A stretch of 64,000 bases of DNA. Source: Diphasiastrum complanatum. Taxonomy: Eukaryota > Streptophyta > Lycopodiopsida > Lycopodiales > Lycopodiaceae. The position numbers were made by a program, and so were the translations under genes. The notes below the pieces were generated by a model. It did not search any database and was not told where the DNA came from. It saw only the letters and a program-made list of their open reading frames with translations. The stretch lies in the NCBI GenBank assembly GCA_029204225.1, contig CM055100.1, forward strand, positions 33,904,645 through 33,968,644, written 5' to 3'. Numbering within the stretch: position 1 is the first letter of the stretch; every line of letters begins with the position of its first letter. Below are positions 35,401 through 62,985 of this stretch, piece after piece.

Positions 35401-38400
35401 TCATAACTTCAGGCTTTTTAAGAGTAGAGCTCAAACTAATTTTGTCAAGATCAGGCAAAGTAAACATTGTGATGAGAAGATCTTTACTAGAGGTAAAAAG
35501 TTTAGTTTGAACCATAGTACCCCCTGGTACCGCTGGTATGGTACTGCCGGTACCATATCAGTGGTACCGTCGGTACGGTACCGCCCTGGGATCCGCAGTA
35601 CCAGGGCGGTACCATTTTTAATATTTTTTTTATTTTTAATATATTTAATATTTCTTTTTTGCCTATTACTTACCAAAACAAGACAAAAGATGGAAAAAAA
35701 GGGGTATTGAGTGTAAAAAAAAAGGGTACAGTACATGGTGCACGGGACTGGTGCAGTGGCACATGGGCACTATGGGTGAGCAGACCATGGGGCCAATGGG
35801 AGACCAACACAGGGGGGGAGCATCACATGGGGGCAAGTACAAAGGCACATGGACACTGTGGGTGAGCAGACCATGGGGCCAATGGGAGACCAACACAGGG
35901 AGGGAGCATCACATGGGGGCAGGTACAGAGGCACATGGATGGATGATGGGGATCCACATGGCCGATCAGGCTGTGGGGATAACTAGGCACTCACAATGCC
36001 ATTGTGGTTGGCATTTGCAAAGGCTGTGAGAGAGCTAATGATAGACAGTGAGAGAGCAAGCGAGAGCCGGTGACAAGCTGTTTGAGAGCCAGGGTGCTGT
36101 GAGAGGGTGTTCAAGGACCAGGGTGTTGTGAGGACAAGGTCGATTGAGATGGCAGAGCGCATACCACCGAAGCCCGAGGGCGAAGCAAGGAGGAAGCTTG
36201 AGGAAGATATCCGAAGGCACAACGAGAGACATCGGAAGCAAGAGGCAGATATCCGAGAGATGCTGCGACAGACTCGGCAGAGAAATCCGGAACCGGAGCC
36301 ACCCGCCCCCGCTGTGGATCTTGCCCCGCTGTCGAGCTGGATCTGGATGAGCAGATCGGAATGAATTTCACATGACGGCAGCTCATCATGGTCAGGGAAA
36401 GGGCGGCCAGACGTCGGGCTAACCAGGAGGCAGCTCGGGCTAACCGGGAGGCAGAGCAAGAGCGACAAAACACTGCACCAGACGAGGGCGAGGAGTCAAT
36501 GGAGGATCAGTGAGGGATGTTTAGAATAGATAATGTCCAGCCGTATGTGGCGGACTGTTGCTATGTAGTTTTCAGCAGTTTATGGTGCAACAAATAACTG
36601 GATGGCTGCTTAAAAAAATGACAGTATATGTGATGTTATCTTGATACAATGGTTGAATACATACATAGTTGTTTTTTGTGCAACGCGAGCCTGGTCATGT
36701 AAGATGCAATCTCTATAATTTTTTTAAATGCAAATGTATTACGTGTGTTTATGAAATGTCGTTTGGGGTGTAGGGGTGATTGTTGTGCTCATGATGTAGG
36801 TGCATATATGTGAAGCTAGCATTCACTTCAAACGAAATTAAATGAAAATAGGATTCACACACGCATATAGAATTCGACATAAAATTGAAAATACAACATC
36901 ACATGTACAGAGCGACATACACACAATGTGCAGCAAATAATGTAGGCCAAACACTGTATATAATGTAAAAAATCATCTGAGTACAATGGTAGACCGTCTG
37001 CTGGAGACAAACTACTGAAACTAAAACAACAGAGCCACAATCAATGCTCTGGCTCTGACTCAGACGAATGCTCTAGAGACAACTCAGGGCCCCGAGCTGA
37101 CTCTCGCAGCCGATATCTCTGCCTGTCTGGAACTGGCATGGGCTGTGTGTCTGAGGAGGAGGACTCGTCACTAGCATCATCCCAGTCTGTCTCCACATCA
37201 GCCCCCAAGCAGGCCAAACCAACAACACCTGCTCCAACTGGCTGTGATACTGCACCTCTGCCTGTACCTGGAGCCCTGCGTGGTCGTCCTCTCCTCCTTG
37301 GCAGTTTCTGTGCCTTGCCTTTCTTGTTCGGTGCACCCTTGGGCCTTCCTGGTCTCTTGCGGACAAGAGGAGCTGTCAATGCCTCGTCACCCCCATGCAA
37401 ATCACCTGGCTGGCTAGGTTGGGCCCAAGCTGAGGCCGGCTGGGATAGGGAAGCAAAAGAGGGAACTCACTGTGCACCTGAGCGAGGAGGATGAGCTCGC
37501 CCCTGTGTGCCCTGCCTGTCTCCCGGTATAACCTGTGCCATGTGTCCCACCTCTGCCACGTGATGCACCTGTGACCCCTGCCCGTGGCGTGTGCCCTGCA
37601 CCTGTATCATCCGCCTCATCCCTCTCTGATCTGGCAAACACAACCCGAATGGGCTCATCCTCATCATGCTCATCCTCTGACACTGGCTCATCTGCCTCAT
37701 ACAATGGGGGTTCTCTGTTCTCAAGCCCAAGCTCTCTCTCTCTCATCTCGGCAAGCTCCCTCTCTCTCTCTGCCATCAACTGTGTGCCCAGGTAAACTGC
37801 AGGCATGGGATGGGTACTGTCCGTAGGCAAGTCAACCTGGCGTTCCAAATCAGATATCTTCGTCTGCAAGGTTTAAAATTTGCATGTCAGAGAGACAACT
37901 TTATGAAGAAATGAAACCAACGTACTAGGAGTCAACCAACATGCTATGGGAGAATAGCTAATCACCTGCAATGCGCTCATAATGGTCGGAAGTCTCCTGG
38001 CGAGACGTGCGTTGGTGCTACAGAACACCAACCGCTCCAACTGACTCACTGACAACCGGTTTCTTCTCCTCGTGTGAATCAGTGCCCATGTGCTCCAATT
38101 ACGCCCACACACGGAGGCAACGCAGTCCTGTGGTACGTGCACATGTGCACGGGTGGAAGGTCAACGAAACACAGCAATGGAGGATGAAATGAGATGCATA
38201 GCTGAGAAAGGACATGCTTCAGCACATGTGCACGGGTGGAAGGTCAACGAAACACAACAATGGAGGATGAAATGAGATGCATACCTGAGAAAGGACACGC
38301 AGTGCAAGACGCTGTATGGATGGATAGGTGCTACCAAACATGGTCCACCAGGTAATGGGAAGTTGCCTCCTCTCTGGATCTTGAGCAGCCGGGTGGCCAA

Positions 38401-41400
38401 ACGTGCCCATGCCGAAACGAAATGCAGCAAGCTCCTCCATGAGCCTGATAGGATCCAAACTTATGTATGGACCCACCCTGTGAATGTACTGAAGCCAATC
38501 GGCCTCGAGCTCCCTGTCTGCGATCTGTGTTGGAGAGAGGAAGAGGGGATGCAGCATGTGTGCAACGCTGTGGGCCGCGCCTCCCATATGAACTTCAGCT
38601 CTGTCATCCTGCAGGTGAGAGGCATGTGGTTTAGGACATTACAAAAAAACTTAACACTAACAGAAAAACAAACTAGCAATTACTAAAAAGATAAAGGCCA
38701 ATTACATTACTATACTTCTTACCTCTCTGGCTGCAAGATGGGCAGCTGCAGGAACTATCCAATCCGGTCCATGAGCTCATATACAAGTCCAAGTGTCGAC
38801 CCCTCGCTGTCAGCCATGCGGAGCACAATGTAGAGTGGTCGAAGCAGTCCTGACAATGTCTGTGCATCCCTCCAGAACTGGTCTCCCCTCACCGTGGAAG
38901 AAAAGTGCTCCCCATCCTCAGTGTGCTGAAACGTACTGGCACGCCAAAGATCACTGGCAACCATCTGTAGAAGCTGCGCCCTACACCTGATCAGACGGTC
39001 AATGATCACCAAGTCAAATGCAAAGCGTGTGGGGGATGGCTTACAGAGGTCCAAATGGCTGAACACCCGGAACATGGCAAGAACACGCCTCTTTCTGGTG
39101 ACAAAAGTCACCAGGAAGAGGGCCTCACGGACGATGGCTCTAACCCAGGGAAGTGCACCTATGTCCCCCATGAGAAGGTCTATGTCGTGCGCCGCACAGG
39201 GGGTATGGACGATGTGAGGGAACTCGGCCTCTAGTAGGACACCCATCTAAACACAGTTGGTGGCATTGTCCGTCACCACCGTAACGACATGCTGGGGGCC
39301 TATGGACAGTATGGAAGACCTAATGACACCGTACTTGAAATCTGCAGATATGACTCCCCCCCCCCTACTGCAATCCACGGCTCTCAAAAACTGTGTACCC
39401 ATGCAGCTGGAGACCAAGATGTTGAGGATCGGCCTCCTCCTGACATCAGTCCAGCCATCAGACATGATGCTACATCCATATGTGGCCCAGTGGCGGCATA
39501 GAGGCTCCATCTCTCTAGACAAGGACTCAACCCTATCTCTCAACATGTGTGTGAGAGATAGGGTTGAGTCCTATCTCTCACACACATGTGTGAGAGATAG
39601 GACTCAACCTCCGAACCAGGGACTCTCCAGCCAGGGCTGACAGACTGTGCAAGGCGGAATGCCCTTCTGAAGGGCTCAGAATTGGTGATGGCAAAAGGTA
39701 GGTTCAACTCGTAAATCAAACTGGCCACGGCCTGTGTGGCCTCTCTGTCCATGTGTGGCTGATGCGCGCCACGAATGGTCTGCTGCACAAGGGCTCTACC
39801 TGGTGGGCGACGGGTGGTGGACCTCCAACACGGTGCACCAACCGTGACGGGAATGGACGATGACGCGACAAGCTGGGCACTGGTGGATGCATCGGCTGTA
39901 GACGTGGAATGGGGAGAGTGGGATGCACTGGCAGGGATGGGTGCAGCAGCATAGGTGGGGTGCACTGGTGGAGGGGCAACATCTGGCATGGGGTACGAAA
40001 ACTGCTGGCTGAGGAGGTCATCCGGATGAGAAGGGAAGGAAGAAGGGATCTCTTCCACATCCTCGAAGGCCTCAGCAGTAGCATCCTGGGCCTGCTCGGG
40101 TGGCGGAGAGTCCATGAGAAAGTCGTAAACCGGGGGCGTGCGAGCAACACGACGTGGAGGTGGAACCACAGTGGCAACTGGCGGACGCGATGGGACGGGA
40201 TCCACCGGAATCTGAGCAGATGGAGGTGCGTGAGACGGAACTGTCTGAGGGGAATGAGGGGCAAAGGGACTGGACGAGGATGCACTCCCTCTCCTCGTGC
40301 GTGCCAGCCAAGCAGGCAGCAACTCTGGGTCAGCCACATAAGGAGCGGTGCAAAATCGGAGAATGCCCTCCGAAATGGTGTTCTCCCCCGCCACGAGCCG
40401 CGGCCCGTAGGTGTCCAGTAGTCGTTGCCTGTCGGGGACGGTCATGCTGCCACAAGGGACAGCATTCAAGGTGGCACCATTTTTGGCGCGTGCACCGAGT
40501 AGATGGCCTTTAAGGCGAGTGAGGGATGCAGCAAATTCGACAAGACAGTATCGGCAGCGCACGATCTTCTGTCCGGTCTTGTTGGACTTGTTGGCAACCC
40601 GCCTGACAATGTCTACCTTGTCCCACAAACCGGAAAGGTCGGATTGCAGCATTGCGATGGAGAAACTAGGGACAAAATGCAGATGAAGCTAAAGCTGCAA
40701 GGATGGAACGCTGGAAAAAAAACAGCAGGGTACACTGTGTGAGAGACGCTAAAAATGGGCGAAGGCAGGTTCTTGCAGATCAGATGCAAGGCAGGGCGGT
40801 CTGTGGGCGAAGGGCCACGCAAATCAGACGCAAGGCAGGGAAGGCAGAGCAGCAAAACCAGTAGCGAAGGCAGGGCAACGATGGCTGCAAAAGAATTGGG
40901 AGAGAAGAAGCAAGGGGGGTGGGTAGATTAGGTTTAAAAAAATTTTAAAAATATTAATTATTAATTATATTATTATATTATGATACCGCGGTACCAGTAC
41001 GGTCCCGCGGTACCGGGATCCGCGGTACCCAGTACCGCGGGACCTATGAACATTAGCCTTGGAATTTATAAAGCGACTTAAAAGAGTTTTAAGTTGATAA
41101 AAGTGAGAATGTGAAATACCAAGATCTTGACAAGACATATTTTCTAAAGTATAGAGCAACTGAAACAAGTTCTTAAGGTTGTATCTACTAAAAATATCAA
41201 GGGAGAACTTACCCAAAGACATAACACGATCCAGAAAAAGTAATCTCCTTATGTAATCTCTATAAGCAAACGTTTTAGAGACAACATTACCAAGGGGTAA
41301 AAAGGTAGGAGTATTAAAAGTACGACGAGGAGAAGGAATGGGAGGATGAGGTGTGATCACAGCTTGTGGATTGTAGCAATCTGGAGGAGGCGGTAGATGA

Positions 41401-44133
41401 TGTGCCATAGGTTTCCAGACTTTCAGACCATTGTGAATTTAAGGTGTAATGTTTTCAGGGTTGTAGTGGGTTCTGAGTTCTCCACAACATGTTCTCTACT
41501 CCTCCCAAATAGCCTCCTCCCCTTTGTGCTCTCCTCACTCCATTCATCACTCTGCCTGCCAATCCCTAACTGGCATCTGGTAGCTATCTCCTTTCTAACC
41601 AGCCTCCTGTCTAAATTTCAGCCCAAAATTATTTGTGGAAACTTGAGAAGGTCGGAAAATGATGGCTGGTCTTGTTAAACTGATAAATATTTGACCCACT
41701 AGCTTCATTATCAACCCTGCAGTCCTAGCTTCTTTGTTAACCCACCCACATCCTCTGCACTGGTGACATAGTGACCAGAAAGATTTGACTGGATTTGAAC
41801 TTTACAAAAGATTTGAATTGAGCACTTTTTTTCAAAAAAAAGGTTTGCAAAAAATCACATTTTTAGGTTTTAGGGAATCCAGACGTTAATTTTTGTTAAA
41901 AACTTAAACGCTACTAACAATCCTAAATGCAGATACAGATGGGAGATGGATGATATAATGACTCCTGTGGCAACTCAATTCAACTCTGAATTACTTGTAA
42001 CCTAGTACACAAATTTCTAGCAATCCTATTCACTGTGCACAAATTGCATGCCCCCACCCCCCAATCGGGGGTACACATTCCAGCATCTCCACTTCTACTC
42101 AGGCCGGGCATTCATGTCCAACATAATCGCTTCTTAAAATTTAAGAATTTAGAACATTTCTAAACTGCGGCTTTTGGAACAGTTCGACATATCTCCAAGT
42201 CAAGCAGAATCGAATACAAAACTGCATCCAGTATGAAATTATATACATCATATCCAAGTCATAATCAGGAACTTTCTTCATTTTATTTTCCAACAGAGAA
42301 TTTCTTGTTGAAAATATCTCCTTAATACTTCCAATATACGACTCTCATATTATGCCACATAACTGATGCAAGGCTACAGAAAAAATTGTGAATTCACTCG
42401 AATTTTCTTGTGAAGCACAACAGCTTGAAATACTAAAAGAAACTGAAAAAGACGTGTTTGAACCTTCTTTTGCAGCTTACGATCAGTCGTATCTGCTTCT
42501 ATGTAGAAACCGGCTTTGTGGACTTCATCCCGAACCTAGTGAAAACGACCAGTTCCATGACATGAAAGGATTATTAACAGTAGTTTCAAATCAACTCATA
42601 AACAAAAGCTTTGAGTATCTGAGAATCTAGGTTAAAATTACCTGAATTGCGTACTCAGTAAACTTTTCAGACACTGGGCATACAATTGCCTGGCGTGGGC
42701 TTAACCAAAAGGGCCACTTTCCACCATAATGTTCTAGTAGAATGGCAAACATTCGTTCAACAGATCCCAAAATAGCTCTATGGATGATCACAGGTCTTTC
42801 CCTTTTGGCTTCATCTTCAGTAGAAAATGACAAGTTGAAGCGTATTGGCATCTGAAAATCTAACTGCAAATCGTCCACAATCAACTCATATCAAGCACCG
42901 CTAACCTGCACACCTCTAGTTGATCAAGTACCTAGATCATAACCTTAAGAAACAGGAAGAGAACTTTCAAAACAGTTAGCTCCACAGGATTGACATGGCG
43001 TCCCAATTGTCCTTAAGAATGTATTTGTCCAAAATTATGCATAAAACAGTACAACAGAATAGCAAAATTTCAACTTAAAATCGTGTCAAACTAAGATCTG
43101 GAAAAATCAACAATAGACGGGTGAAGGCAGCCACAGTTGTCCCCCTTGAAAAGGTCTATCCCAATCTCATATAGAAAATCAGGCTTTGCAAAACCACTGA
43201 ATCCATAACCATTTGGGCCCTTTTTGATTATTTGACATTGGACCGTACTGTTTGGGCACTTTTGAATCTGCTTACAACAGTCATAAGCATTATGTCACTG
43301 GGTATAGCCCCTTCATGCTTCTGTACGGGTTTCAGCCCTGAACTTCCATTTTGTAAGAGCAAGAGTACCGAAGCTCTAAAAAGTGGAAGATTTCCAACAG
43401 AATATGCAAGAGCGTTACACCTTGCATCGAAAATGTCCAAAGTGCCAAGGATCAAGCCAGACATAAATGCAAACCTCAAAAGAGATCAAAGTTTTAAGAA
43501 AGCAAATGAGTATATCCACGAATCCTGAAGGACTAACTGACTGGCAAGCATGAGAAGTTCTCTACAACGTTTAAAATCTTAAAGTAAGTTGATGATGTGG
43601 CTTACAAGCCGAACTTTCAAAAGAATATAAATTCATTAAATATTTCATTTTAAATGGCTTTAAAAAAAAATCATTCAGTGGCACCAGATGGTGAATTGGA
43701 GAGGAGGTCGTTGACAATCATGTTGTCCCCTAGTACTTGAGTACATGGCATCAGATGATGGTTCTTAAAAGTGTGAAAAAGTTCCATCATAATTGCTCTC
43801 TACCCGACCAAGGTACATGCAACCCATATATTATCACATCAAAGCTATCCTATATACACATGCATGACCAATTTAGGCACATGCGTGGACTTGCACAAAA
43901 GCCAGGTAATGTGGTAAAATAGCAAAGCCGGCTGTATCCAACTCTAAGAAATGAGTCCAATAGTAATCGGCTTTGACCCCTAACTGGCCTTGCCAGGCTC
44001 GGTCAAGATATGCTCTATATATAAAACGTTTGATAAACTGGTGTGTACCCAAAGGGAGGTCTATGATAGAGATACCAAATGTCTCGAGGAGGTGAGATGC
44101 CTGAGAGAACCATGACAATCGATAGCCCTGATC

Positions 44134-44169
<36 letters not shown>

Positions 44170-47100
44170 CTAAAGTCTTTCGGTTCCAACAAGTACATAA
44201 GGCTAAAAAGAGTTCATATAGAATGTGTTCTCTACTCATAGTTGCCCAAAAATGCGTTTCCGGACAAAAACGTTCCAGAAACGCGTTTCTGGATCCAAAA
44301 TTGCTGGAAAAAACAAAAATAGATCTTTCAAAATTCATAGGGATTGACAGAATCCAACAACGATTGATGCACCTAAACTAGACCACACCATAACTGAAAC
44401 AATCGGCAACCTACATAAATGCAATGCCCTTGATTAGAGTCATAGTTGCATTGCGATTCAGAATCGCGGTTCAGAATCGTGATTCGGAATTTTCCTAGAA
44501 TCGTTTAGAATTGTGTATTTTTTTGGGGGGCAATATGGGTATCAGAGGAAAGCTCTAATTAAGAGCATTATTATTGTGTAGTTTGCCGAATGTTTCGGGT
44601 ACAGGATAGTCCAGTTCAGGTGCATTAATCCATGTTGGGTTCTGTCAAGGATAAAAATTCAAAACTGTTACGATCACAGATGGTTCCAGTAGGCAATTGT
44701 ACCTCGCTTTTTGCTTCGGGAGGCACTGCCCCCTGATCCCCCCGGACCCCCCCGGCGACAGTAGCAGGGGGGCGCTACCCCCCCTGCACCCCCCCGTATA
44801 TAAAAATGGGGTCCAAATGCGCGCCGATAAGGGCCCAATATTTATGCCCCCAACTGTATGCACATTGCACTCACATCTCTAATGAAATGCATTGGAAACA
44901 TCTAATTGGAACACATTCCACTTGAAATAGGTAGCAAGAGATATAGGAATCCTTATTGTCACCATCTTTGCCACGGGTGCAAAGGTCTCTTCATAATCAA
45001 GTCCATGGATTTGAGCAAATCCCTTGGCACATAATCTTGTCTTGTACTTGTTGATGGTGCCATCTTGATTATACTCGATTCGAAATACCCACTTGGATCC
45101 ACACGCTCCCAAGTGTTGTTGATGATCAAGGCTTCATATTCTTGCTTCATGGCCTCATACCACTCCTTGAATGCCTCTTCAACATCCTTTGGCTCTGTGA
45201 GATGAAATATGCAAAGTTGGTGGAATCAAGCTCCACGGCCTCATACCACTCCTTGGGAATGCCTCTTCAACATCCTTTGGCTCTTCATGTGAGATGAAAT
45301 ATGCAAAGTTGTGGAATCAAGCTCCACTTGCTTGCCTTTGTCAACAGATGAAAGCCTCATAGGCTCGGATCTCTCTCTTGATGTCCTCCTAGGTGTGAAA
45401 ACCCGAGGAGACTCCTCCTCAAATCTCGACCCCAACATCTCTTGATTGTCTTCAATACGCATGATAGTTGATGAATCTTGAGGTAACTTGATCTCGGCCC
45501 CTTCAAGTGATGGATGTTAATCTTCATGGAATATAACATCTCTACTTTCAATCACTTGTGAAGTAGATAGTACAAAGACTCTGTAAGCCTTTTTGGTGGA
45601 TGAATATCCAACCATGATCCCTTTGCTAGAGCATGGATCATGCTTCTTCCTTGTTTCCAAGGGAACATGTACACAGCAAATAGTGCCAACTACTCTAAGG
45701 TGATCAACCTTAGGCTTCTTTTTGAATAAGACCTCATATGGTGTCCTTCCTTCAAGATGTGGGAGCCTATTCCAAAGATAGTTTGCACATTTTATAGCCT
45801 CTCCCCAATTTAGGCAAAGATGCTTCAATCCTTATGGCTTTTGTACACTCACATAAGGATCTATTTTTCCTCTCGGCCACTCCATTTTGAGATGGTGAGT
45901 AAGCACAAGAGAACTCCCTTTTAATGCCTTCTTTCTGACAATAGTATTGGAATTATCACAACTCTCTCTTGGATCAAGCTTGTATATGCTCCAAATCTTG
46001 ATTCGTGTGCAAGGATCTCATCATTTCTCTTGATAAGTATTAACATTCAACTTCACATCAAGGCCACCATCAAGAAGTTGGCCAACACTTATGAGGTTCT
46101 TTGTAAGATTAGGCACCAAAAGAACCTTGTTGAGAGAAGAACTTTAGAAGATAAAGTCTTCAAGGGAATACTCATTATGCCTTCAATATTGCATTCTTGG
46201 CCATTTGTTGTATAGATAGTCTTCTTAGCTCCTCCATAAGGCATAATAGCTGTGAAGGACGAGCTACACATATGTGATGATGCTCCACTATCAATGTACC
46301 AAGATCCAGTGTAGATGAAAAACTAGAGACCATAAGTGATCCCTCTCCATCACTTGCGATAGAGTCTTCTTTCTCATTTGAAATGTTGGCTTGCTTGAAT
46401 TGATTCTTCTTCTTGAAGCAATTTGTAGCATAGTGACCCATCTTGCCACAAAAGAAACATTCGATATTCTTCTTCTTCTTTGAGGTAGAAGCATGAGAGG
46501 TGTCAACCTCCTCTCCATCTTGGTCTTTATCTTTTGTTTTGTCCTTGGAGTGTTGGTGTTGCTTTTTGCTCCTCCCTTTGTGCTTGGCAAAAAGAGATTT
46601 GCCATCACCATTATGATTGAGTGATAATCTCTCCATCCTTAATAGCTTGTTCTCATGCCTTGATTCTTCAGCTATTAGCACTCCTTGCAAAGCCTTCAAA
46701 GTAGGTAGATCCTCCTTGATGGCATAGGATTGGACAAGGTTCTCATACTCATCTCTCAAGCCATTAAGTATGACTTGGACTAGCTCACTTTGCTTTATAG
46801 AATCTCCAATACAAAATTATGATTGGTAAAGCGAGTACATATAAAACTCATGGAGATCCATGCTTACATCCTATTAGACCCCTGATCCTAGCCTCTCTAA
46901 TCCTATTGGATGAGTGATGCATCCATCTTGCGATTCTATTGGACCCTTCATATGGATTTCTCAATTGTGATTGGACCCTTTGACCTTTGCCAACACTTTG
47001 ACTTAATCACTCATCAAATTATATTTACACAAGTGTCACAAGCCTAACTAGCTTGAGTTTGCATCATAAACTACTTTTGGCCAAATTGTGGCTTTACATG

Positions 47101-50100
47101 TGGAATTGACCATTTTGCAATCTTTGCTAATTTTGGCCCTATCAAAGTCCTACACAAAGATGCTTGACATAAAAAACTTAGCAAACCCCTAAAGCTATGA
47201 TAGATAACTTTTTATAATTTTCACAGCTGCAATTAGGATTAGAGCTTTAATTTGATACACATGTTGCCCAAAAAATTTAAAAAACGTTTCTGAGAAACGC
47301 TAGCCAAAATTAGAAACACAGTTCGGAAACACATTTCTGACTGCGTTTCAAAAATCGTAGTGCAACTATGTCTCTACTTTGGGAGCATAAAAATGTCTCA
47401 AGCATAAAGCAAATTAATCTAAATCTAACAGCAAAACAACTACCTGAATAATGAACAAATGTTCTTCAATCAATGTAAATAATAACATAACTCTCTACAA
47501 CCTCCTGGAGTGACCTGAAAAGAAATTCCTCATAAACCTTGGAGGTCATGTTGTCATAGTTGCCAGGGAACGGGAAAAAAAAAATAACGTGGCCACTGGG
47601 AACAGGAACGTTTACGAGAACTTGGAAACATGGGAATGTGGGAACACCACCTCATTAAATATAAGTTTGAAACAGCGCTCAGGAAAACCGGCAAACTGTA
47701 GGAATGAAACCAGCCTTATTTCTCAAAAACGAGTATCTTGATACTTTTGATGGTTTTTATATAGGCATATGAACCCTTTTATGGGTAACAGTCAACAAAA
47801 AACTGAGAAACTTCACAAAAAGCAACTTTTATTAGAAGATTTTGCATTTGCTACTTGGGAACGCGTTCCCACCCTTGGGAACGTGCCAAGGATTGCCTGG
47901 GAACGTGTTCCCACTGCTACGGGATGTTCCCACCTGGGAACGTGTTCCGAGAATGTTTGGTAGGTGGGAACGTGGGGAACGTGTTCCCTGGTAACTATGC
48001 ATGTTGTATGCCAAGATGATTGCCATGGTACTCTAGATACATTTCATCATGCAACCTCAAGGTGGGCTAGTCTAATATGCATTTGACGTTGTTTTCAAAC
48101 TTGATTTCTATAAAGGGCATCTTTATCTATCCTTTGACTCAATTTGTGTCTTTCTCACCAACCTAGGGCCTCGCCTGGGGAAGAAAGTAGTGATACGTTG
48201 CAATGTATGATAGCTAGTGCTTGTGTCAGCCATGCAACATATATCACCCCTCAAAAAATAGAACATCTCTTGTACCATCAGGACAACACATCTTTGGTCC
48301 CCGTATGATTTAGAGGAAGGAGTCATGACAAGTGATCCTAAATCAGTAATATCCCCCTCACATCTCGCAATAAATTGGGCATCCGAAGATAAAGTGCTCC
48401 TTTGTCTCCACCTCACCCACGGAACATAGCTCGATAACTGATCCTCTCTAGGGTGCAATGGAACCAACCCACCTCTACCTATAGTTGATGTGAAGATACT
48501 CTGAACTACCCTAAGGTAAAGCAAAGGCTGTCTAACAATCACGATTCCAAATATTGCGATCGGATAATGTCTCCATGTGGATCAAACTACAAAAAATGGG
48601 ATTTAACTCAAAGAAGAAATAAAAGAGGATGAAATGGGATTAAGCTGTTTTTTTTACCAGCTTTCCACAACAAACAAGGCATATTCTACGGTTAGATTGA
48701 CCGAAATTTGTCATTCTATTTCCATGAACTTTTATTCATGGTCTTCCACTCTCCTCATTAACTCGATCTTCTTACAAGGTATGAGAGCAAGTGAAATCAT
48801 GCTTGGTTTTCTTACATAACCAAAACATGTACTAGCGTTTCTAAAATTCCATTCAAAAGGTACATGACAATATATTTCTAATAGGAATGGCAAACAATTA
48901 ACCAACCTGACTCCACTCTCCCTAAATGTGAAGGTTGATGAAGAAAATTTTATGTAATATACCCACAAGAAAATTCTTTTTGAGTTCCAAATCGACAATG
49001 CTAGAAATCTAATCACATACTCTCTTTTCTTATACTCAATCATAAATGAACAATGTCAAAGAGTGGGGTGAAGTGATGAAGTTTAAGCAAATTTTAGACT
49101 ACAATGCAACAAACTATACAATCCTTCTTGGCTTTATTCAAAAATTAACACAAATCATGAGAAGATGAGGTTAAAGAGACCTAATCCTACTCTATGTCAG
49201 CAGAATTTGAAGTACATCAGCCAAGGGTTCCCCAGTTTTGGGGAAAATTATGAAAGGGTACCAATTTGGAAGAAGCTAGAGATATGGTAGGTCAGAAATC
49301 TACATTAAGATGTGGAAAAGAAACTGCATTGAGTACAAATTCACACCTTGAATGCATACCTGTATTGTCGCACATTGGAATTTTCTCTTAAGTGCATCGT
49401 AAACGGTTATGTCAATCTTGGGACCATAGAAAGCACCATCCCCTTCATTGATCTAAAGGAAAAGCACCAATGAAGATCCCAAAGACACATCAAAGCCTCT
49501 CATCACAGCATGGAAAATGTCAACGCGTTTTGAACTCCTAGTTTCAAACAGTGTTCCAACATATTGATTACAAGAGGTTATTGAATGAAAATGTTACTGG
49601 TGCTACAGATTATTCAGACACCTTAAGTACCAAATAGCTTTGAAGATCATTTCAAACATACCTGCCAAGGCTTCCCAAAAGAATCTAGCGCATGACTCAG
49701 AGCCTTTTCAGCACGGTCCCATGTTTCAAGTTCTCCAAGATACTTTTCTGGTCTCTATCGACAAAAGAAAACTCAACTTCAATGAAAAAAAACAATTAAG
49801 TTTTCCTTTTATCAGTGACACCAAGATTGCAAAGAAACAGTTTGTGCAAAGCCATCATAGAACAGATTAGTATGAATGACATCTATACTACAAAAGCAGA
49901 TAGAGAAATATGTGCTTGGTTATAAATTACACAATCCCCAAGAACTAAAGCTTCAATTCTTCCGCTACCCAGATGATAGTACAGAATTTGTGCATTTAAG
50001 AGAGATGTCATACTCCATACTCAACTTCTGACACGAGACAAAAATATCTTTCAGAATGGATGTGATCAATGTGAAGGGCAAATGCAAAGCAAACTGCATT

Positions 50101-56100: not shown

Positions 56101-59100
56101 GTAACGAATGAAGCGGAGCAGCCACAGTGGCAAAATACTTAACAAGACGACGAAGATGGGTTGCCATAACTAACAGCCTCCACCAATCTGCAGGAAGGTT
56201 GACGGAGAAAAATCGATGAAAGTGATGGGTGGTAGGGCGCTGGACAGCCTCCACCAATCTGCAAGAAAGTGCTCTGATACAAAGTTACAAGCTAAGATTC
56301 ACTAGCTATGCTAGAAAGCAGACTTAAGCTAGAAAGTAGGAAGAGAATGCTTAAGGAGGCTAAAAGAAGTGCAATCATCATAAATTGAGTAAAGGAATAC
56401 AATGTTGCCCTACTTATACCCTCTCCCTAAATCAAATGGACGATTCAAAAAAGGGAGGGAAAATAGTGCGCCCTCCCAATAGGAGGATCCCCACTCCAAA
56501 TCAATGTGACCAAGTCCTAAAAATATAACCAAATAGGGCCCAAGGCCAGTATATGAATAAAAAGGGCCCTTAGGCCTACTTATGCATAATAACAATAAAA
56601 GAATGGCCGCAGCGAATCCACATCTGTTTAAAGACTCCAATAAGTTTTCTAGAAAACAATATCTGCAATCTTGTGGATGCAAGATAGATATAGCCCTTTC
56701 TGAAAAACAAGAGAAGCTCACGTGTTTATTATGAGCTTGTCACTCAAGCTCCTCTCTGCAATATGGCCGATGCATAGTTTTGGGAAATATTTTCCACATG
56801 GGAGACGAGAATCCCCTAGGAAAGGGGAACGATAATCGAAAAACAAGATAGAAAAGGATAGAAATTACGTTGACATCATTTACATTGCAAAGGAGTGAAA
56901 TTATGTTAAAATAAAGTCAACAAGACTCCTAATAAACGTTCAAATTTGGCGTTTAACCAAATGACATGCCTTATGTTATTGGGAAACATGATTCCCCGGA
57001 GCGTTTCCCCATAATGTTTCCTACGCATAGATGTTAACTTAGCGTAAACTAGAATTATGGTCTTCAGCACATCTCATTCCTTTATGCAACAACATACTTC
57101 CATGTTAGATGGTTAGCCAATGGAGATGGTCTCATCATATAAAATACCTGGAGTATTTTTCAAAAGTCCTATCTTAGCAAAAGACACACCTTTCAATTGG
57201 ATAGGGAAGGGAAACTCATCCTTGGTCAGTTTGAAATTTTATGTTTTAGGAGGTATGTTTGTGACTTGATGAGGGAGTATAAACTCTTTGACACATTGGT
57301 ATCTCCTACAACTATGTATGCAACATAGGGATGGTGCAAATGACTTACAAACTCTATCTCGTAATCTTATCCTTACAAAAGGAACCACATAATGCGACCA
57401 TGCTTATCTCTCTCCTTGGCTCTCCAATATTTAGGTCCGATCTTCTAGAGCACCGTACTTCATTAACTAGGAGTGATCTTGATCCTAGAACATGCAGCAT
57501 TCTAAAAAACACTAAAGTTTCAATCAAGTACTTTGATGCCTTTACGCATCAACTACAAGAGCCATAATGATAGATTCTAGAATGACCACAGGTAGCTGTA
57601 GCAAGAAGAATACAATGCTCTATGTTAAGACATGATGATAGAGTTCAACTAAAGACAGGCTCCAGTATCATCAATTTCTTCCCCCACATCTTGGTAGAAC
57701 TTTGCATCTCTCTCTCGTAGCTTGAAACTCAACAGCGTCTTGCTTGAGCTGGTTCTCAATTAAGAACAGATCTATTTGAACTATCCTATCAAAATTTCTA
57801 GTTTTCACAACCACTTTATGTTGAAGAGTAATGCCTATTTTACCCCTTTGGCTAAGCATTAATTATGTTGTAAGTTGTACATTGCTGGGGCATGGGGCAT
57901 GGGGCATGTTATTATTAAATACATGAGACCCCCTATTTGTAACTTAAATAAATTAGGGCGAGTGGCCCGCTTGGCCAAGTAGCTCACTCATATGATTGAC
58001 ACCTATACTTTCCATGCATGTACTTGAGGTGCTTGCCTTGCCTCACAAGGGACTTGGAGGACCCAGGCCTTCTTCTCTCTGTCTCTCTAGCAATTCATTT
58101 TCTCTTTTAACTTTTGGTGTTGTGAGGTGCTTATGCAATTCTCCTTGTAATTGATGTTTTCCATAGCTAAGTTTCTCAAGCTTTCCTAGTTGATCTAGTA
58201 TTGCAGTTAAGACACTCCATAGCTAGGTCTTGCAATTCATCACTTTATTGCTGAATTCTTGGTCTACCGGAGCTATGATAGTGTTTTATTGAAGAGGGAT
58301 GTCAACTATTAATTCCATCATGACTTAAACAGCTATCCTTGAAGTGTTTTCACCAAAACAAAATCATACACTTTAAGCTTCAGCTTTGTGCATAGAATGC
58401 ACTTTCAATTTGCTTCAATTTTTCCTTATGTTTCTCCAATTATTGAGAACCTCTTGCACATAATAGCTCAAAACTTTTGTAGTTAATATGTGGCAGTCGT
58501 ATTTGAAGTTCCCAAAAGCATGTTTCCAGATTTCAATTTCCACAAGCCATAGTACATGAATTGCAAATCGACCAGCACATTACTTCACTTGTATCAAGGG
58601 AGTCGGGACACTATTTTGCAGCATAGTGTGCCTTACACCCTTTATGATATATGGTGTATAATGTACTAGTGACACTATTTCTACTTTCTTATCCTTCAAA
58701 ATCAACTTTTTCATCAACTTTTTGAAAGAGCTAAGAATAAATTTTAAAAACTTAGGACAACAGACATCTCTGGCAGCTTCATATGCATCTGGTCTTATGG
58801 AATAACTATATGTGCAACATCCTAGATTCAAAAGAAACACCAAATAAAAAAGAGAGAAAATCAAACCTCAAATACAAACATATTTTCTTTGTAATTGGCT
58901 GCATGGCCAGAAATTTCCCATAGTTGCATGTTGTACATGTTTGGTGTCACAACCTGCAAGCAATCAAATAAGTGTGTACAGAAGGATGTAAAAGGTATTA
59001 TTTGTCTTGGAAGGATCATATGGAAGTAACAGAAATTCAGCTTGAGGTTGAAATGACCACAAGGGTCAAAAGTGACATAGGATGATAGACATTGCCATTT

Positions 59101-59464
59101 GGCTGCCAAGGTAAGGCATATGAAGACGTTCAACCATGAAAAGGAGGCACATAGGAAGACTCAAAAGTGAGGTATGCACATCACAATTTGTCAAAGTTAC
59201 AAGAAAATGCCGGAGGAACACCACGGATCTGACAAGCTTACACTGGAACTAGCAATCATGTCCTTTCCTAAAACAAGTAAAAAGTCTCAGTAGCCTTGCT
59301 TTCTATAGCTTACACTAGAACTAGCTATCAATTCCTTTCCTAAAAAGCATTATAGGTAAAAACTCACCTCTTGGTAACCTCGCTTTCTATATTGTGAGCG
59401 AACAAACTCCAGCAATTTGTTATATATACGTGTGCCATGTGGTAGGAAAAAACAACTTCCTGGG
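32375..59464 (-). CDS. THRRS: Threonyl-tRNA synthetase, 3' part of a split gene (12 exons seen)
   Basis: Class II threonine-tRNA ligase, which charges tRNA-Thr for translation. The exons (minus strand, 5' to 3') are 59464-59368, 58953-58867, 54507-54423, 53617-53523, 53067-53035, 50652-50566, 49754-49662, 49452-49360, 42863-42642, 42535-42464, 32933-32862 and 32470-32375. They join in frame to 376 residues plus stop, all with GT-AG introns. Visible landmarks: [11 protein letters not shown] start of the core, the zinc cysteine in MNCPGHC, motif 2 LHRNE, zinc histidines in DDAHIF and IHRA, motif 3 [13 protein letters not shown], and the anticodon domain with [10 protein letters not shown] and VNVRTRDN. 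The N-terminal TGS and editing domains are not in the window. Introns range from 106 to 9530 bp; three large ones are swollen by transposons. Exons look undamaged, so the gene is probably functional. Cytosolic versus organellar targeting cannot be judged without the 5' end. Confidence 0.95.
32862..32933 (-). CDS. THRRS: ThrRS exon: anticodon domain [16 protein letters not shown]
   Basis: 24 codons: [20 protein letters not shown], then SSGK. Acceptor TTGATAG, donor GTACAC. A longer open frame in another phase across 32750-33010 is only a shadow of this exon. KKI|REAQ replaces the usual KKVREAQ, a mild change. Confidence 0.94.
33540..35317 (-). pseudogene. PLE reverse transcriptase, decayed
   Basis: RT of the Penelope type, homologous to telomerase RT. 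In order on the minus strand: [14 protein letters not shown] (about 35240); [20 protein letters not shown] (about 34890-34830); [20 protein letters not shown], the PKLHK box (34710-34640); motif [19 protein letters not shown] (34420-34365), with the catalytic Asp kept; a decayed G-PMG motif B as NNRYSHGVL (near 34125), followed by CEFEFIQRL; motif C CYFDDF (33974-33994), still with two Asp; then [32 protein letters not shown] (33700-33660) and KVRTI (near 33575). At least four frame changes and several stops show an inactive copy. Motif order and the KLHK and FDKR blocks exclude LINE or group II RTs. Confidence 0.82.
35520..35620. repeat. H1 left subterminal GGTACC palindrome cluster
   Basis: It contains at least five GGTACC sites or one-mismatch variants, plus GGATCC, within 100 bp. 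It mirrors the cluster at the right end. In hAT elements subterminal repeats are bound by the transposase; that role is inferred here. Confidence 0.8.
35759..35940. repeat. H1: 86-bp tandem repeat, 2.1 copies
   Basis: Units start GCACATGGGCACTATGGG at 35759 and GCACATGGACACTGTGGG at 35845, and a partial third starts at 35931. They are rich in CATGGGGCCAATGGGAG. They lie between the left end of H1 and the plus-strand reading frame. Confidence 0.88.
36149..36513 (+). pseudogene. H1: small coiled-coil-type frame opposite to the transposase
   Basis: It begins [20 protein letters not shown], then [20 protein letters not shown] and [18 protein letters not shown]. After a one-base shift it reads [13 protein letters not shown], a TGA in place of a probable CGA, then [20 protein letters not shown] and a tail ending in EGEESMEDQ with stop. 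It is strongly charged and heptad-like, with an acidic end. It converges with the transposase gene. I do not recognise the family. Some DNA transposons carry a second accessory protein, so an accessory role is possible, but this is inference. Confidence 0.5.
38139..38304. repeat. H1: 83-bp tandem duplication across a transposase splice donor
   Basis: Units 38139-38221 and 38222-38304 both contain GCACATGTGCACGGGTGGAA. The duplicated part covers the end of exon 2. The copy nearer the exon keeps CTCAG|GTATGC on the minus strand, while the other reads CTCAGCTATG and has lost the donor. The extra copy now lies in the intron. Confidence 0.85.
39523..39609. repeat. H1: double palindrome inserted in the transposase coding region
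   Basis: GGACTCAACCCTATCTCTCA at 39523 pairs perfectly with 39552-39571 around a 9-base loop. The right arm again pairs with 39587-39609 around a CA/TG-rich centre. Translation across it gives repeated YLSHxC and RDRTQ stretches that do not belong to a hAT core, and the frame shifts. The gain is probably a replication-slippage or template-switch product. Confidence 0.85.
40981..41044. repeat. H1 right subterminal GGTACC palindrome cluster
   Basis: Repeated CCGCGGTACC and GGTACC units around a central GGATCC, like the left cluster. It is the inverted counterpart within the terminal region. Confidence 0.8.
41049..41408 (-). pseudogene. PLE N-terminal region upstream of the hAT insertion
   Basis: The open frame from ATG 41408 reads [17 protein letters not shown] through [18 protein letters not shown] to FINSKANV, where H1 interrupts it. 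Removing H1 and one copy of the 3-bp AAC lets the frame continue as [16 protein letters not shown]. No known domain was seen in this part. A GIY-YIG motif is not visible here. Confidence 0.65.
42464..42535 (-). CDS. THRRS: ThrRS exon: anticodon domain [15 protein letters not shown]
   Basis: 24 codons: [17 protein letters not shown], then DRKLQKK. Acceptor TTCACTAG. The donor GTTCAA is weak but the only one that fits the reading. The next exon follows after the 9530-bp intron that holds the PLE and H1. Confidence 0.92.
42642..42863 (-). CDS. THRRS: ThrRS exon with class II motif 3
   Basis: 74 codons, the largest exon seen. It holds [13 protein letters not shown], the third zinc histidine in VIIHRAILG (E. 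coli His511), motif 3 [19 protein letters not shown], and [15 protein letters not shown], where the anticodon-binding domain begins. Acceptor ATTTGCAG, donor GTAATT. Confidence 0.97.
44136..44165. repeat. (GA)n microsatellite
   Basis: About 15 GA units just left of element H2. Simple repeat in a ThrRS intron. Confidence 0.95.
44441..44870 (+). mobile_element. H2-internal hAT-type left terminal region (nested copy)
   Basis: It starts CATAGTTGCATTGCGATTC, followed by GAATCGCGGTTCAGAATCG palindromes. It is homologous to 60753-61180 (shared AATATGGGTATCAGA, GAAAGCTCTAATTAAGAGCA, CCATGTTGGGTTCTGTCAAG). A GC-rich block with runs of G and C lies at 44720-44800. Its right terminus was not found, so it is either a nested, truncated insertion or part of the body of H2. 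Confidence 0.6.
44884..46820 (-). pseudogene. C6: internal Ty1/copia fragment inside H2
   Basis: The minus strand gives Gag end [20 protein letters not shown], zinc knuckle [14 protein letters not shown] (about 46415-46460), and a damaged protease block with the DSGA site deleted. It then gives integrase tail [20 protein letters not shown] and [18 protein letters not shown], linker, and RT start [19 protein letters not shown] with [15 protein letters not shown], breaking off at VSNAFH near 44884. There are no LTRs and no Gag start, so both ends are internal cuts. It is closely related to C1. The lack of LTRs within a hAT-type element suggests capture, or an insertion trimmed later. Confidence 0.8.
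45152..45330. repeat. Tandem duplication of about 85 bp in C6
   Basis: CCTCATACCACTCCTTG, CCTCTTCAACATCCTTTGGC and GGAATCAAGCTCCAC recur in the same order in two adjacent units (about 45152 and 45240), with small indels. It lies in the RT/linker boundary and disrupts the frame. Confidence 0.8.
47555..47999. mobile_element. H3: hAT-type MITE, 445 bp, exact 8-bp target duplication
   Basis: Ends: CATAGTTGCCAGGGAAC at left and, reverse-complemented, CATAGTTACCAGGGAACACG at right. CATGTTGT flanks both sides (47547-47554 and 48000-48007) exactly. Inside, variants of GGGAACGTGTTCCC occur repeatedly near both ends. There is no coding capacity. It must have been moved by a transposase supplied in trans. 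Confidence 0.9.
48123..48542 (-). pseudogene. Possible Ty1/copia protease-region remnant
   Basis: A frame of 139 codons includes [20 protein letters not shown]. This recalls the copia protease start with an ADxATTHxIL-type active site and not DSGA. The rest is not convincing. It is single-copy in this window and has no flanking LTR. It may instead be an accidental open frame. Confidence 0.3.
49360..49452 (-). CDS. THRRS: ThrRS exon: [17 protein letters not shown]
   Basis: 31 codons: [20 protein letters not shown], then [22 protein letters not shown] is a ThrRS signature close to the active site. Acceptor CCTTTAG, donor GTATGC. Confidence 0.96.
49662..49754 (-). CDS. THRRS: ThrRS exon: [19 protein letters not shown]
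   Basis: 31 codons, ending [12 protein letters not shown]. This is the strongly conserved STRPEKYLG...W block of ThrRS. Acceptor GTCGATAG, donor GTATGT. Confidence 0.95.
50566..50652 (-). CDS. THRRS: ThrRS exon: [18 protein letters not shown]
   Basis: 29 codons: [18 protein letters not shown], then [11 protein letters not shown]. It matches the segment between the second zinc ligand and the RPEKYLG block. Acceptor AAAACAG, donor GTAGGG. A plus-strand frame over the same bases is only its shadow. Confidence 0.94.
50911..51060. repeat. Tandem duplication, 80-bp period, two copies
   Basis: The unit starting GTTGCTTGATGGAAAGTTG and including TTCATTGACAAGAATAAT recurs after 80 bp, with five or so substitutions. 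The first copy reaches past the end of ThrRS exon 50566-50652 only in the intron. Confidence 0.85.
52200..52367. mobile_element. Possible H3-related terminal region
   Basis: It contains CAAGTTCCCATCTCTTGGG and ends with TTCCCTGGTCACTATG, close to the right end of H3 (TTCCCTGGTAACTATG). The left end and target duplication were not found, so this is a weak call. Confidence 0.35.
52457..52766. repeat. Tandem duplication, 155-bp unit, two near-identical copies
   Basis: Units at 52457 and 52612 both run from CTGTTTAGAGCAAAAAAC to CATCACAA(A/G)TCCAC and differ at only about two visible positions. The near identity suggests a recent event. Confidence 0.95.
53035..53067 (-). CDS. THRRS: ThrRS micro-exon [11 protein letters not shown]
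   Basis: Only 11 codons. The histidine of DDAHIF is the second zinc ligand of the family (E. coli His385). Flanked by TTTGCAG and GTAAAT. Confidence 0.92.
53523..53617 (-). CDS. THRRS: ThrRS exon with class II motif 2
   Basis: It completes the split Glu codon and reads [16 protein letters not shown], then [21 protein letters not shown] and RVRRFQQD belong to motif 2, which contacts ATP and the acceptor stem. Acceptor TTTGCAG, donor GTTCGT. Confidence 0.95.
54423..54507 (-). CDS. THRRS: ThrRS exon with zinc-ligand cysteine
   Basis: [20 protein letters not shown] and DHRVRSYR. The cysteine in MNCPGH corresponds to the zinc ligand that selects threonine over valine in the family (E. coli Cys334). 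It ends with one base of a glutamate codon. The acceptor is ATATGCAG. Confidence 0.95.
54993..55340 (-). mobile_element. G3: 3' LTR
   Basis: It is repeated at 56283-56617 with small differences (AGTTACAAGCTAAGATTC at one end, GCATAATAACAATAAAAG near the other). On the minus strand it follows a purine stretch GCAGGGGAGAG near 55365. It may extend to 55370, beyond the part shared with the 5' copy. Confidence 0.85.
55370..56257 (-). pseudogene. G3: Ty3/gypsy RNase H with RT end, isolated
   Basis: One uninterrupted frame reads [18 protein letters not shown] and [18 protein letters not shown] (end of RT), then [74 protein letters not shown] and [16 protein letters not shown]. These are the gypsy-type RNase H with the catalytic Asp and Glu residues. 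The frame continues shortly into the spacer before integrase and then into the LTR. Gag, protease, the RT palm and integrase are all missing between primer-binding site and polypurine tract. It is an internally deleted element. Confidence 0.9.
56268..56282 (-). other. G3 primer-binding site, variant
   Basis: The minus strand reads TTTGTATCAGAGCA at the inner border of the 5' LTR, a variant of the TGGTATCAGAGC type. Confidence 0.65.
56283..56617 (-). mobile_element. G3: 5' LTR
   Basis: The second copy of the LTR at 54993-55340. It lacks a TG start on the outer side, and no target duplication was recognised, so the outer edge may be trimmed. Confidence 0.82.
56773..57030. mobile_element. Possible further hAT-type element with GGGAAA/TTTCCC palindromes
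   Basis: It begins CATAGTTTTGGGAAATATTT and shows GGGAAACATGATTCCCC and GCGTTTCCCC near 56980-57020, then GCATAGATG. This resembles the H2/H3 style, but no matching terminus or 8-bp duplication was found. Confidence 0.35.
58867..58953 (-). CDS. THRRS: ThrRS exon: [19 protein letters not shown]
   Basis: 29 codons, phase 0: [18 protein letters not shown], then [11 protein letters not shown]. This is part of the substrate-binding core of ThrRS. Acceptor CTTGCAG, donor GTTTGA. Confidence 0.95.
59368..59464 (-). CDS. THRRS: ThrRS exon: [10 protein letters not shown] start of catalytic core
   Basis: It encodes [20 protein letters not shown] and ends RKRGYQE. The acceptor is TTTTGCAG at 59465 and the donor is GTGAGT. 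The exon begins with the third base of a serine codon, so an upstream exon ending in a split Ser codon is required; none was found up to 64000. Confidence 0.95.
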
Positions 59465-60752: not shown

Positions 60753-61180
60753 CATAGATGCCCAGCGTTTCTGAAACGTGATTCAGAATCGCGTTCAAAA
60801 ACATGGTTCAGAAACGCGTTTCTGAAAATTTTAAAAAATTCCAGAAACATTTTTTTTTTGTTTTTTATTGGACAATATGGGTATCAGATGAAAGCTCTAA
60901 TTAAGAGCATAATTACTGTGTAGTTTGCCAACTGTTTTGGGTGCAGGATGGTCCAGTTCAGGTGCATTAATCCATGTTGGGTTCTGTCAAGGATAAAATT
61001 TCAAAACTAACCTCTAGCCTGTTCGTTACGATCACAGATGGTCCCAGTAAGTGTGTTTTCGCTCAGGAGTTGTAAGGGCAAATCATGAAAAGGCCTTACT
61101 GTCGGGGTCGGGGTCTACCGGCAGCCCCCGGACCCTGCCTTTGGGGGGCGTTGCCCCCCAAACCCTCCATAGAGTTGAAA
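60753..61180 (+). mobile_element. H4: hAT-type left terminal region
   Basis: CATAGATGCCCAGCGTTTCTG, then GATTCAGAATCGCGTTC and CAGAAACGCGTTTCTG. It is homologous to 44441-44870 including the AATATGGGTATCAGA and GGTGCATTAATCCATG blocks. A GC-rich box GGGGGGCGTTGCCCCCC lies near 61145. The matching right end was not found in the window. Confidence 0.6.
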
Positions 61181-62901: not shown

Positions 62902-62985
62902 CATAGATGCCCAAAAACGCGTTTCTGGGAGGACACGTTTCTGAAACCGCGTTTCTAAACCCAGAATCGTTAAAAAAAAAAAAAA
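62902..62985 (+). mobile_element. H5: hAT-type terminus
   Basis: CATAGATGCCCAAAAACGCG, then TTTCTGGGAGGACACG and GAAACCGCGTTTC. It closely resembles the H2 left end (CATAGTTGCCCAAAAATGCG). The other terminus is not in the window. Confidence 0.55.

Follow-up and report, generated by a model that had tools for sequence, protein, structure and literature searches.

The window analysed here is a stretch of 64,000 nucleotides (C9:33904645-33968644, contig CM055100.1) within the 1.74-Gb genome of the lycopod Diphasiastrum complanatum. It contains several hAT transposons, among them H1, which carries a transposase gene, and the non-autonomous elements H2 and H3. Their outer ends begin with CATAG, followed inwards by arrays of short palindromic motifs that differ between elements. 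The first-pass annotation of this DNA had read this as co-evolution of transposase binding sites around one constant CATAG terminus. We report that the feature is real and genome-wide: paralogous hATs have a loosely shared tip and lineage-specific palindromes that go with distinct BED fingers, and there are non-autonomous elements with exchanged ends. The annotation saw the pattern correctly and over-stated the constancy of the terminus, while the mechanism of motif recognition is one that we infer.

hAT elements of the window

The sequence CATAGWTGCC, with at most one mismatch, matches 18 times in the window against 7.25 expected, and none of 100 shuffles reaches 18. A scan for CATAG..CTATG pairs 150-8,000 bp apart, with 8-bp flanks allowing up to one mismatch, found only H2 and H3, both with perfect target-site duplications (Table 1). 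Among the elements H1 to H5 proposed earlier, these two stand as complete insertions; H1 is without a duplication and the other candidates are left ends only. No CTATG right end with a duplication turned up in the scan for those at 44441, 60753 and 62902. The length of H2 is in part due to a copia-like piece inside it, with Pfam matches to gag_2, to a zinc knuckle and to an SH3 domain. Locus L036 is the one most similar to the left end nested at 44441 (winH4; 95% identity), and L022 to the left part at 60753 (winH4b; 96%). AAACGCGTTT occurs at 44279, 60812 and 62915, GAATCGCGATTC or a sequence one transition away from it at 44474, and GGAACGYGTTCC in four copies within H3. Genome-wide, H3 yielded 590 first-look candidates; 31 of the best 40 scored, which include the window copy itself, cover at least positions 5-427 of its 445.

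H1 is represented elsewhere by a complete 6,229-bp copy (L001:2539 to L092), to which it is 78-94% identical when aligned in pieces. The copy has the tips CATAGGTCCC and CATAGTACCC, each flanked by ATATATAT. The subterminal motif of H1 is an array of CGGTACC/CGGATCC half-sites; the motif GGTACC(GC)GGTACC ascribed to it earlier was not given exactly, as neither GGTACC(N0-2)GGTACC nor GATTCNNGATTC occurs on the plus strand of the window (both read almost alike on the two strands). A search with the H1-type DUF659 region gave 88 hits with the same score of 198.7 bits among the best 150, many with an uninterrupted frame of 672 amino acids. Equal scores and intact frames suggest a recent burst of this element. 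Within the transposase gene of the window copy, tandem short perfect inverted repeats (23, 21 and 20 bp) lie at 39522-39609, where the frame shifts between the N-terminal part and DUF659.

Autonomous families with their own ends and motifs

The ends of families X, Y, Z and W were read from the genome-wide list of DUF659 matches and those of Q and S from the list of matches to the hAT dimerisation domain. The DUF659 search with H1 gave H1-type copies, which also fill the lower part of the DUF659 list. Family X has the tips CATGGTTGCA and CAAGGTTGCA and the motif CAAACGCGTTTG; family Z the tip CATGGTTGCA and the motif CCAAACGCGTTTGG; family Y CATAGAACCC and CCACGGTTCC; and family W, by our own reading, a tip starting CTTAG (CTTAGAAGCCC) with the motif GGAACGTTCC. 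The tips of Q (CAAGGTTGCATC, duplication CTAATCAA) and S (CAATGTTG, duplication CTACAAGC) enclose a common motif, GGTTCGAACC. In the H1 lineage the tips CATAGGTCCC/CATAGTACCC go with CGGTACC and CGGATCC. W, with its CGTTCC motif, was rejected as a candidate helper of H3 on account of its tip, CTTAGAAGCCC.

The CATAG(T/A)TGCA lineage is represented by a 5,073-bp element (L105:1119-6191) with the duplication GTATATGC, reached through a search for two CGTTTC-type (class A) ends facing each other. Its transposase matches DUF659 (E-value 2.6e-38) and, above the cut-off, the dimerisation region PF05699 (29.4 bits). A smaller A-type element adjoins it and accounts for an extra A-type end that lies 2,977 bases before the start of the L105 gene, on its upstream side.

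A BED finger could be read in nine transposase families or subfamilies; each of these has ends and a motif of its own, except that Q and S share one motif. Transposase (sub)families are paired with motifs, and the motif clusters go with distinct BED fingers, which the earlier annotation had suggested testing. The palindromic motifs sit at element ends and differ between CATAG-tipped lineages, as it had proposed. The second separator suggested at that time, an AT-hook tail, does not distinguish the two lineages whose tails were read: basic GRP stretches, which we take to be AT-hook-like from their resemblance to that motif, occur in the C-terminal tails of both transposases read (H1, window 37041-37400 minus; L105, 4936-5328).

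The tip consensus of hAT elements is loose, of the type C-A-n-n-G, and short terminal inverted repeats of this type are present here as CATAG, CATGG, CAAGG and CAATG. The pentamer CATAG is shared by the elements of the window. Constant it is not: the sister families begin with CATGG, CAAGG, CTTAG or CAATG, and the bases after CATAG follow the class, being TTGCA in classes A and B (CGTTTC and CGATTC half-sites), GTCCC, TACCC or ATCCA in the H1 lineage and AACCC in Y. The idea of co-evolution around one terminus is supported in part: one inner body occurs behind several motif classes, so that motifs do vary around a related core. For a single shared outer terminus there is no support. Duplications of 8 bp were found for H2, H3, Q, S and L105.

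Other families are less complete. Family P gave no complete element, only a right end CAATGTTTCAG with CGTTTC sites, and in family R both copies look truncated and neither is a complete element. At L065, stretches matching the R-family copy enclose an element end that has half-sites of A/B type and part of the body described below (about 320-775, oriented); one hAT seems to have landed inside another. L095 differs from the other families, with 78-79% identity to Y copies across some 140 bases, and no ends could be located for it, and L103 matched no other fetched locus in DNA comparison.

Motif and finger type are paired in the CATAG(T/A)TGCA lineage

The relatives of the L105 DUF659 exon are 94-100% identical (best 150 of 10,437 candidates). 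They have two types of finger, which carry H or L three residues past the second Cys and, in most copies, RGPDG versus RGPGG. CGTTTC occurs in the first 150 bp of the copy's own left end in none of six H-type and in all eight L-type copies. These 14 are the loci, among 25 fetched, that were readable for both finger and end; L107, L108, L110, L114, L117, L119, L120, L125, L126, L127 and L128 lacked a readable finger, end or both (at L117 and L128 the end could be read and the finger could not). The rule was fixed after 13 loci (L105-L117), and all six readable loci among the 12 later ones agree with it.

The right ends give the same picture. Here the length of the open frame, 122 or 131, stands for the finger type, a correspondence that holds in 16/16 loci of these two frame lengths with the finger read, and 50 of the 150 hits (49 on C1-C8, one on C11) were compared with the first 100 listed places of each pattern. 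Right ends of CGTTTC type, 12 of them distinct, lie beside 13 of the 26 frame-131 hits in range and beside none of 15 hits of frame 122. Those of CGATTC type lie beside three of 11 frame-122 hits and none of 18 frame-131 hits. All 16 pairings agree with the subgroup, in right-end orientation and 1.3-3.9 kb downstream. Taken together, this is strong evidence for a pairing of finger type and motif. For repeated co-evolution of the two the evidence is weak, because the copies are related.

In the alignment of the nine fingers W, V, C, C, H, L and C never vary, and these include the C-x2-C, H and C zinc ligands. A Pfam zf-BED search of the genome gave five matches only. In the accessible parts of the work on the Hermes transposase, two BED fingers bind a quasi-palindromic subterminal repeat, and bases are contacted by residues 63-67 and 70, just ahead of the zinc-binding His71 (PMC10368747). 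Counted back from the His, the corresponding positions read GSLTR..A in A/B, GG[LP]QR..S in Z and X, [AS][ST]LTR..G in H1 and Y, NTLTK..A in W and GGPTR..A in both Q and S. A finger that reads the motif should leave such a pattern, but ancestry alone would produce it too.

Small elements with different motifs share one body

Small elements with different motifs have a common inner body, starting GGCAATATGGGTATCAG. A 15-mer of this body, in whose choice the motif played no part, occurs at 4,434 exact places in the genome and its reversed control at none; one element may contain two such places. Our sample, taken blind to motif, consists of the 40 places that head the list, with only one kept from each pair, and all of them lie within the first 15.3 Mb of C1. 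CATAG[TA]TG[CT] lies within 260 bp upstream of the body in 24/40 loci and in 0/40 distal controls (shuffles: mean 0.205, maximum 2), at a distance from the body of 39-168 bp. Plain CATAG, which is weaker evidence, is found by the body in 30/40 loci and in 11/40 distal 260-bp controls.

One alternative is that CATAG is shared by chance, or as a generic hAT tip without lineage information, and that the window elements are unrelated hATs. The other tips of the sister families, the plain CATAG in distal controls and the different transposase lineages of H1 and of the H2/H3-type elements speak for it. We nevertheless regard it as unlikely, given the nine-base form in the body loci and not in controls, and given that DUF659 is common to H1, L105, X, Y, Z and W.

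Between tip and body, each element has an array of one main half-site, CGTTTC, CGATTC or CGGTACC/CGGATCC. Over the 40 loci the majority half-site is CGTTTC (class A) in 19, CGATTC (B) in 12, CGGTACC/CGGATCC (C) in three and CGTTCC-type (D) in two, with no majority in four. A and B sites segregate by element: in the 21/40 loci with at least three A and B sites taken together, the sum of |A-B| is 84, as compared to a permutation mean of 35.7 and maximum of 56 (0/5,000 permutations reach the observed value). With the right end sought within about 900 bp, the 40 loci gave 14 candidate pairs with 8-bp duplications, ten of which have hAT-like tips and 0-1 mismatch.

The A-type body elements have their right-end tip and body in common with L105:1119-6191. 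They fit MITE-like (miniature inverted-repeat transposable element) non-autonomous hAT derivatives, presumably non-coding, whose ends are shared with an autonomous element. The right end of L105 carries the body, which suggests that the small elements arose from such an end of an L105-type element. The body might instead be a small transposon in its own right, bounded by inverted ends (GGGCAATATGGGTATCAG...), that entered many hATs unrelated to one another. This would suit its occurrence in differently ended elements and the core found inverted at both sides in small elements (for example C1:8813639 +, 8814145 -). We consider it very improbable and disfavour the body as a separate transposon: the autonomous L105 element has only one exact arm, by its right end, the element at C1:10639171 shows the same arrangement (body 10641491, end 10641592), and in all 24 loci with the nine-base tip in the 260 bp scanned the body keeps its place inside that tip.

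Exchange of ends

Three of the 40 sampled elements are chimeric: both their ends are those of the H1 lineage, and the body that these enclose is that of the CATAGTTGCA lineage. In L026, an H1 left end, an A/B body and an H1 right end follow in order; its ends match H1 1-114 (E-value 7.7e-18) and 6111-6229 (1.6e-26), and its interior the A/B body (6.8e-44). The element in L003 resembles it and that in L043 has the H1 ends reversed, while L010 retains a short piece of the body only. The complete H1 copy itself contains no TATGGGTATCAG. An element of L001 with yet other ends (CTGTGTTGCAG/CAAGGTTGCAG, motif GGATCGCGATCC) encloses the same body.

The principal rival explanation is simple descent, in which ends and transposase are inherited together, the match of motif and finger comes from ancestry and no switching takes place. 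Near transposases do have near motifs: X and Z, 77% identical in DNA over 109 bases, have CAAACG in common, H1 and Y share CGGNNCC, and Q and S share GGTTCGAACC. Moreover, a tree of the bodies clusters strongly by motif class, with 7 end-class changes against a shuffled mean of 14.6. Yet a minimum of three changes would suffice where seven are found, and well-supported branches force at least two changes each for A and for B. Ends of classes A, B and C are followed by the same body, as are D ends for some 50 bp; the C-ended body elements align to the ends of another lineage over about 110 bp. Several long branches make details of the tree unsure, it omits L014, L023, L024 and L030, which have no majority class, and the labels of L004, L011, L027, L034 and L040 come from a single site. 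As evidence of switching the chimeras appear clearer than the tree. Simple descent on its own retains an appreciable, though lesser, probability.

Target flanks follow the ends

An (AT)n run of at least 8 lies beside the tip in 7/10 loci with H1-type ends (6/9 if L001 and L092, which are one element, are counted once) and in 3/50 loci with CATAG[TA]TG (A/B) ends (Fisher 1.3e-4). Among the body-bearing elements of the 40-locus sample, with a run length of 7 that was chosen after seeing the data, the array adjoins all three H1-ended elements and one of 24 with CATAG[TA]TG ends. In this small sample, landing site and target choice track the ends of an element, whatever its body.

The (AT)n flanks could also mark a chromosomal or chromatin niche and not a preference of the end-recruited transposase. 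Several H1-type elements occur in one (AT)n array (L001, L003), as with nested or clustered insertion; the body-bearing elements, however, come from the same chromosome arm and split by end class, and we think the niche explanation doubtful. At L001:1440-2540 and L003:1694-2519, several hATs that differ in their ends are neighbours within a single (AT)n array, among them an element with the tips CTGTGTTGCAG/CAAGGTTGCAG and the GGATCGCGATCC motif.

Other features of the window

A CATAGTTGCA match at 58919 was dropped as an element end, for it lies in a coding frame. This minus-strand frame, 58861-59160, is probably threonyl-tRNA synthetase; Pfam gave no match to it. A second exon on the minus strand, 42630-42890, matches tRNA-synt_2b (E-value 1.6e-6, 28.7 bits) just below the cut-off of 29.3. 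If both belong to one threonyl-tRNA synthetase gene, H2, H3 and many other repeats would be intronic. At 55000-56620, two near-copies (from 55000 and from about 56290, by eye) flank a possible retrotransposon with terminal repeats.

Table 1. Positions of the transposon features in the window and of one coding match
Feature	Position	Strand	Description or basis
H1	35513..41048	- (gene)	hAT; tips CATAGTACCCCCTGGTACC (left) and CATAGGTCCCGCGGTACC (right, as reverse complement)
H1 C-terminal hAT dimerisation region (weak)	38219..38587	-	PF05699 E 0.0013, 18.9 bits, below cut-off 21.4
H1 DUF659 exon of transposase	39247..39546	-	Pfam PF04937 E 1.3e-21
H1 BED-type CCHC finger (LWDKVDIV...C)	40452..40652	-	translation, alignment with eight other fingers; no Pfam match (including PF02892) to this frame
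H2 target-site duplication TCTCTACT, left copy	44229..44236	.	
H2	44237..47370	+	non-autonomous hAT, tips CATAGTTGCCC / CATAGTTGCAC, AAACGCGTTT-type array
Nested left end in H2	44441..44650	+	tip CATAGTTGCATTGCGATTC, GAATCGCG half-sites, then shared body (CAATATGGGTATCAG); right boundary undefined
Ty1/copia-type gag and polyprotein fragments within H2	45520..46816	-	Pfam PF25597 E 1.2e-26, PF14223 E 1.9e-6, PF00098 E 6.5e-5
H2 target-site duplication TCTCTACT, right copy	47371..47378	.	
H3 target-site duplication CATGTTGT, left copy	47547..47554	.	
H3	47555..47999	+	445-bp non-autonomous element, tips CATAGTTGCCAGGGAAC / CATAGTTACCAGGGAAC, GGGAACGYGTTCCC arrays
H3 target-site duplication CATGTTGT, right copy	48000..48007	.	
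CATAGTTGCA in probable threonyl-tRNA synthetase exon, outside any element	58919..58928	+	open frame 58861-59160 minus
Body-bearing element, left part	60753..61180	+	tip CATAGATGCCC, CGTTTC half-sites; right boundary approximate, by eye
Left end CATAGATGCCC with AAACGCGTTT	62902..62985	+	

Discussion

Two processes are mixed in these elements: divergence of the motif along with the transposase, and exchange of both ends in the chimeras. We propose that each autonomous lineage encodes a transposase with a distinct N-terminal CCHC BED finger, and that the subterminal arrays, mostly of a CpG-centred palindrome, are most likely the binding sites of a pair of fingers. The catalytic core would cut at the common CATAG-like tip and insert with an 8-bp duplication, and one transposase may mobilise mainly its own dialect. 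By acquiring new ends, the chimeras would have switched helper transposase, and the transposase recruited by the ends would set the choice of target. This reading as a whole, with paralogous DUF659-type hATs, finger-motif pairing, a shared tip and end exchange in chimeras, we hold to be quite probable.

Several observations weigh against it. The H- and L-type fingers are the same at the Hermes contact positions (GSLTR..A, aligned by eye from the zinc ligand) and differ a few residues earlier and in flanking residues; because the contact residues are the same, the finger may not explain the difference between CGTTTC and CGATTC. The H-type finger scores 14.9 bits with PF02892 (E-value 0.028), below the cut-off of 20.6, and the L-type finger has no match; a sequence search of the PDB with the finger alignment had no BED structure among the 60 matches listed, which were mostly generic zinc fingers. 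The H/L contrast is one between two subfamilies, so that the 14 copies represent one or few evolutionary events, and for the divergence of the H and L fingers no positive selection was seen (non-synonymous divergence, dN, 0.106; synonymous divergence, dS, 0.327). L-type elements hold both half-sites, Q and S have CGAATCG sites beside GGTTCGAACC, and some elements, such as L013 (2:1) and L023 (2:2), have no clear majority half-site. In-frame stops in the finger segments of L105, L109 and L113 tell of decay in some copies. No autonomous partner was found for H3 or for the D and E classes. In the window, H1 has flanks that do not match (GTTTGAAC versus AACATTAG) in place of an 8-bp duplication, and no (AT)n adjoins it.

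More tentatively, the half-sites might form a small combinatorial code, CG-[T/A]-T-[T/C]-C plus a CGG-shifted branch, read by one BED scaffold. Finger and half-site would change one step at a time along each lineage, and non-autonomous parasites would leave a dying helper by adopting ends of a different dialect, changing helper and landing site at once. CGTTTC, CGATTC, CGTTCC and CGATCC are all present; the shifted branch has CGGTACC, CGGATCC and CGGTTCC. This extension we regard as rather unlikely.

Maize Ac/Ds is likewise a hAT with subterminal arrays, whose N-terminal domain binds many short AAACGG sites. Its tip and core family differ from those of the elements here, and we know of no dialect series in Ac/Ds. 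A literature search for ZBED1 with TGTCGCGACA returned nothing, and this human BED site was not used as evidence. Hermes presumably makes an 8-bp duplication, as do the elements here. As described in the accessible parts of its report, it resembles them in its N-terminal CCHC BED finger, its palindromic subterminal repeats, bound there by two BED fingers, and its short tip; it differs in its motif, AAG(T/C), as compared to mostly CpG-centred motifs of at least six kinds per genome, a DUF659-type core and predicted binding here (PMC10368747). For hAT-19-type transposases and CGG-binding proteins, the available portions of the source report that related hAT fingers read different motifs, often CGG or CGC, and that four hAT-encoded fingers bind motifs matching their own subterminal regions, so the principle is already known (PMC8097297). 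Those proteins are spread, according to the same portions, across species of fish, other vertebrates, insects and fungi; here close paralogues occur in one genome, together with chimeras and a shift in target flanks (PMC8097297). The pineapple Ac-mMITE elements, in the part of their description available, are small elements clustered in (TA)n arrays with near-pure (TA)n between them, a niche like the one found here; they are Mutator-related with 9/10-bp duplications, whereas here the ends are of hAT type, the duplications 8 bp where read, and an autonomous-type copy lies in (AT)n (PMC8449440). In the literature searched, which consisted mostly of abstracts and largely of journals other than subscription ones, we found no description of a dialect pattern with chimeras.

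How a transposase and the sites it binds can change together without loss of mobility is an open question. D. complanatum has, in one genome, paralogous hATs in thousands of copies, with fingers and motifs that vary among them, with intermediates of mixed half-sites and with chimeras in which two ends of one lineage enclose the body of another. On this material one could naturally test a BED recognition code, the switching of helpers by small elements and the question whether (AT)n targeting is decided by the transposase that the ends recruit.

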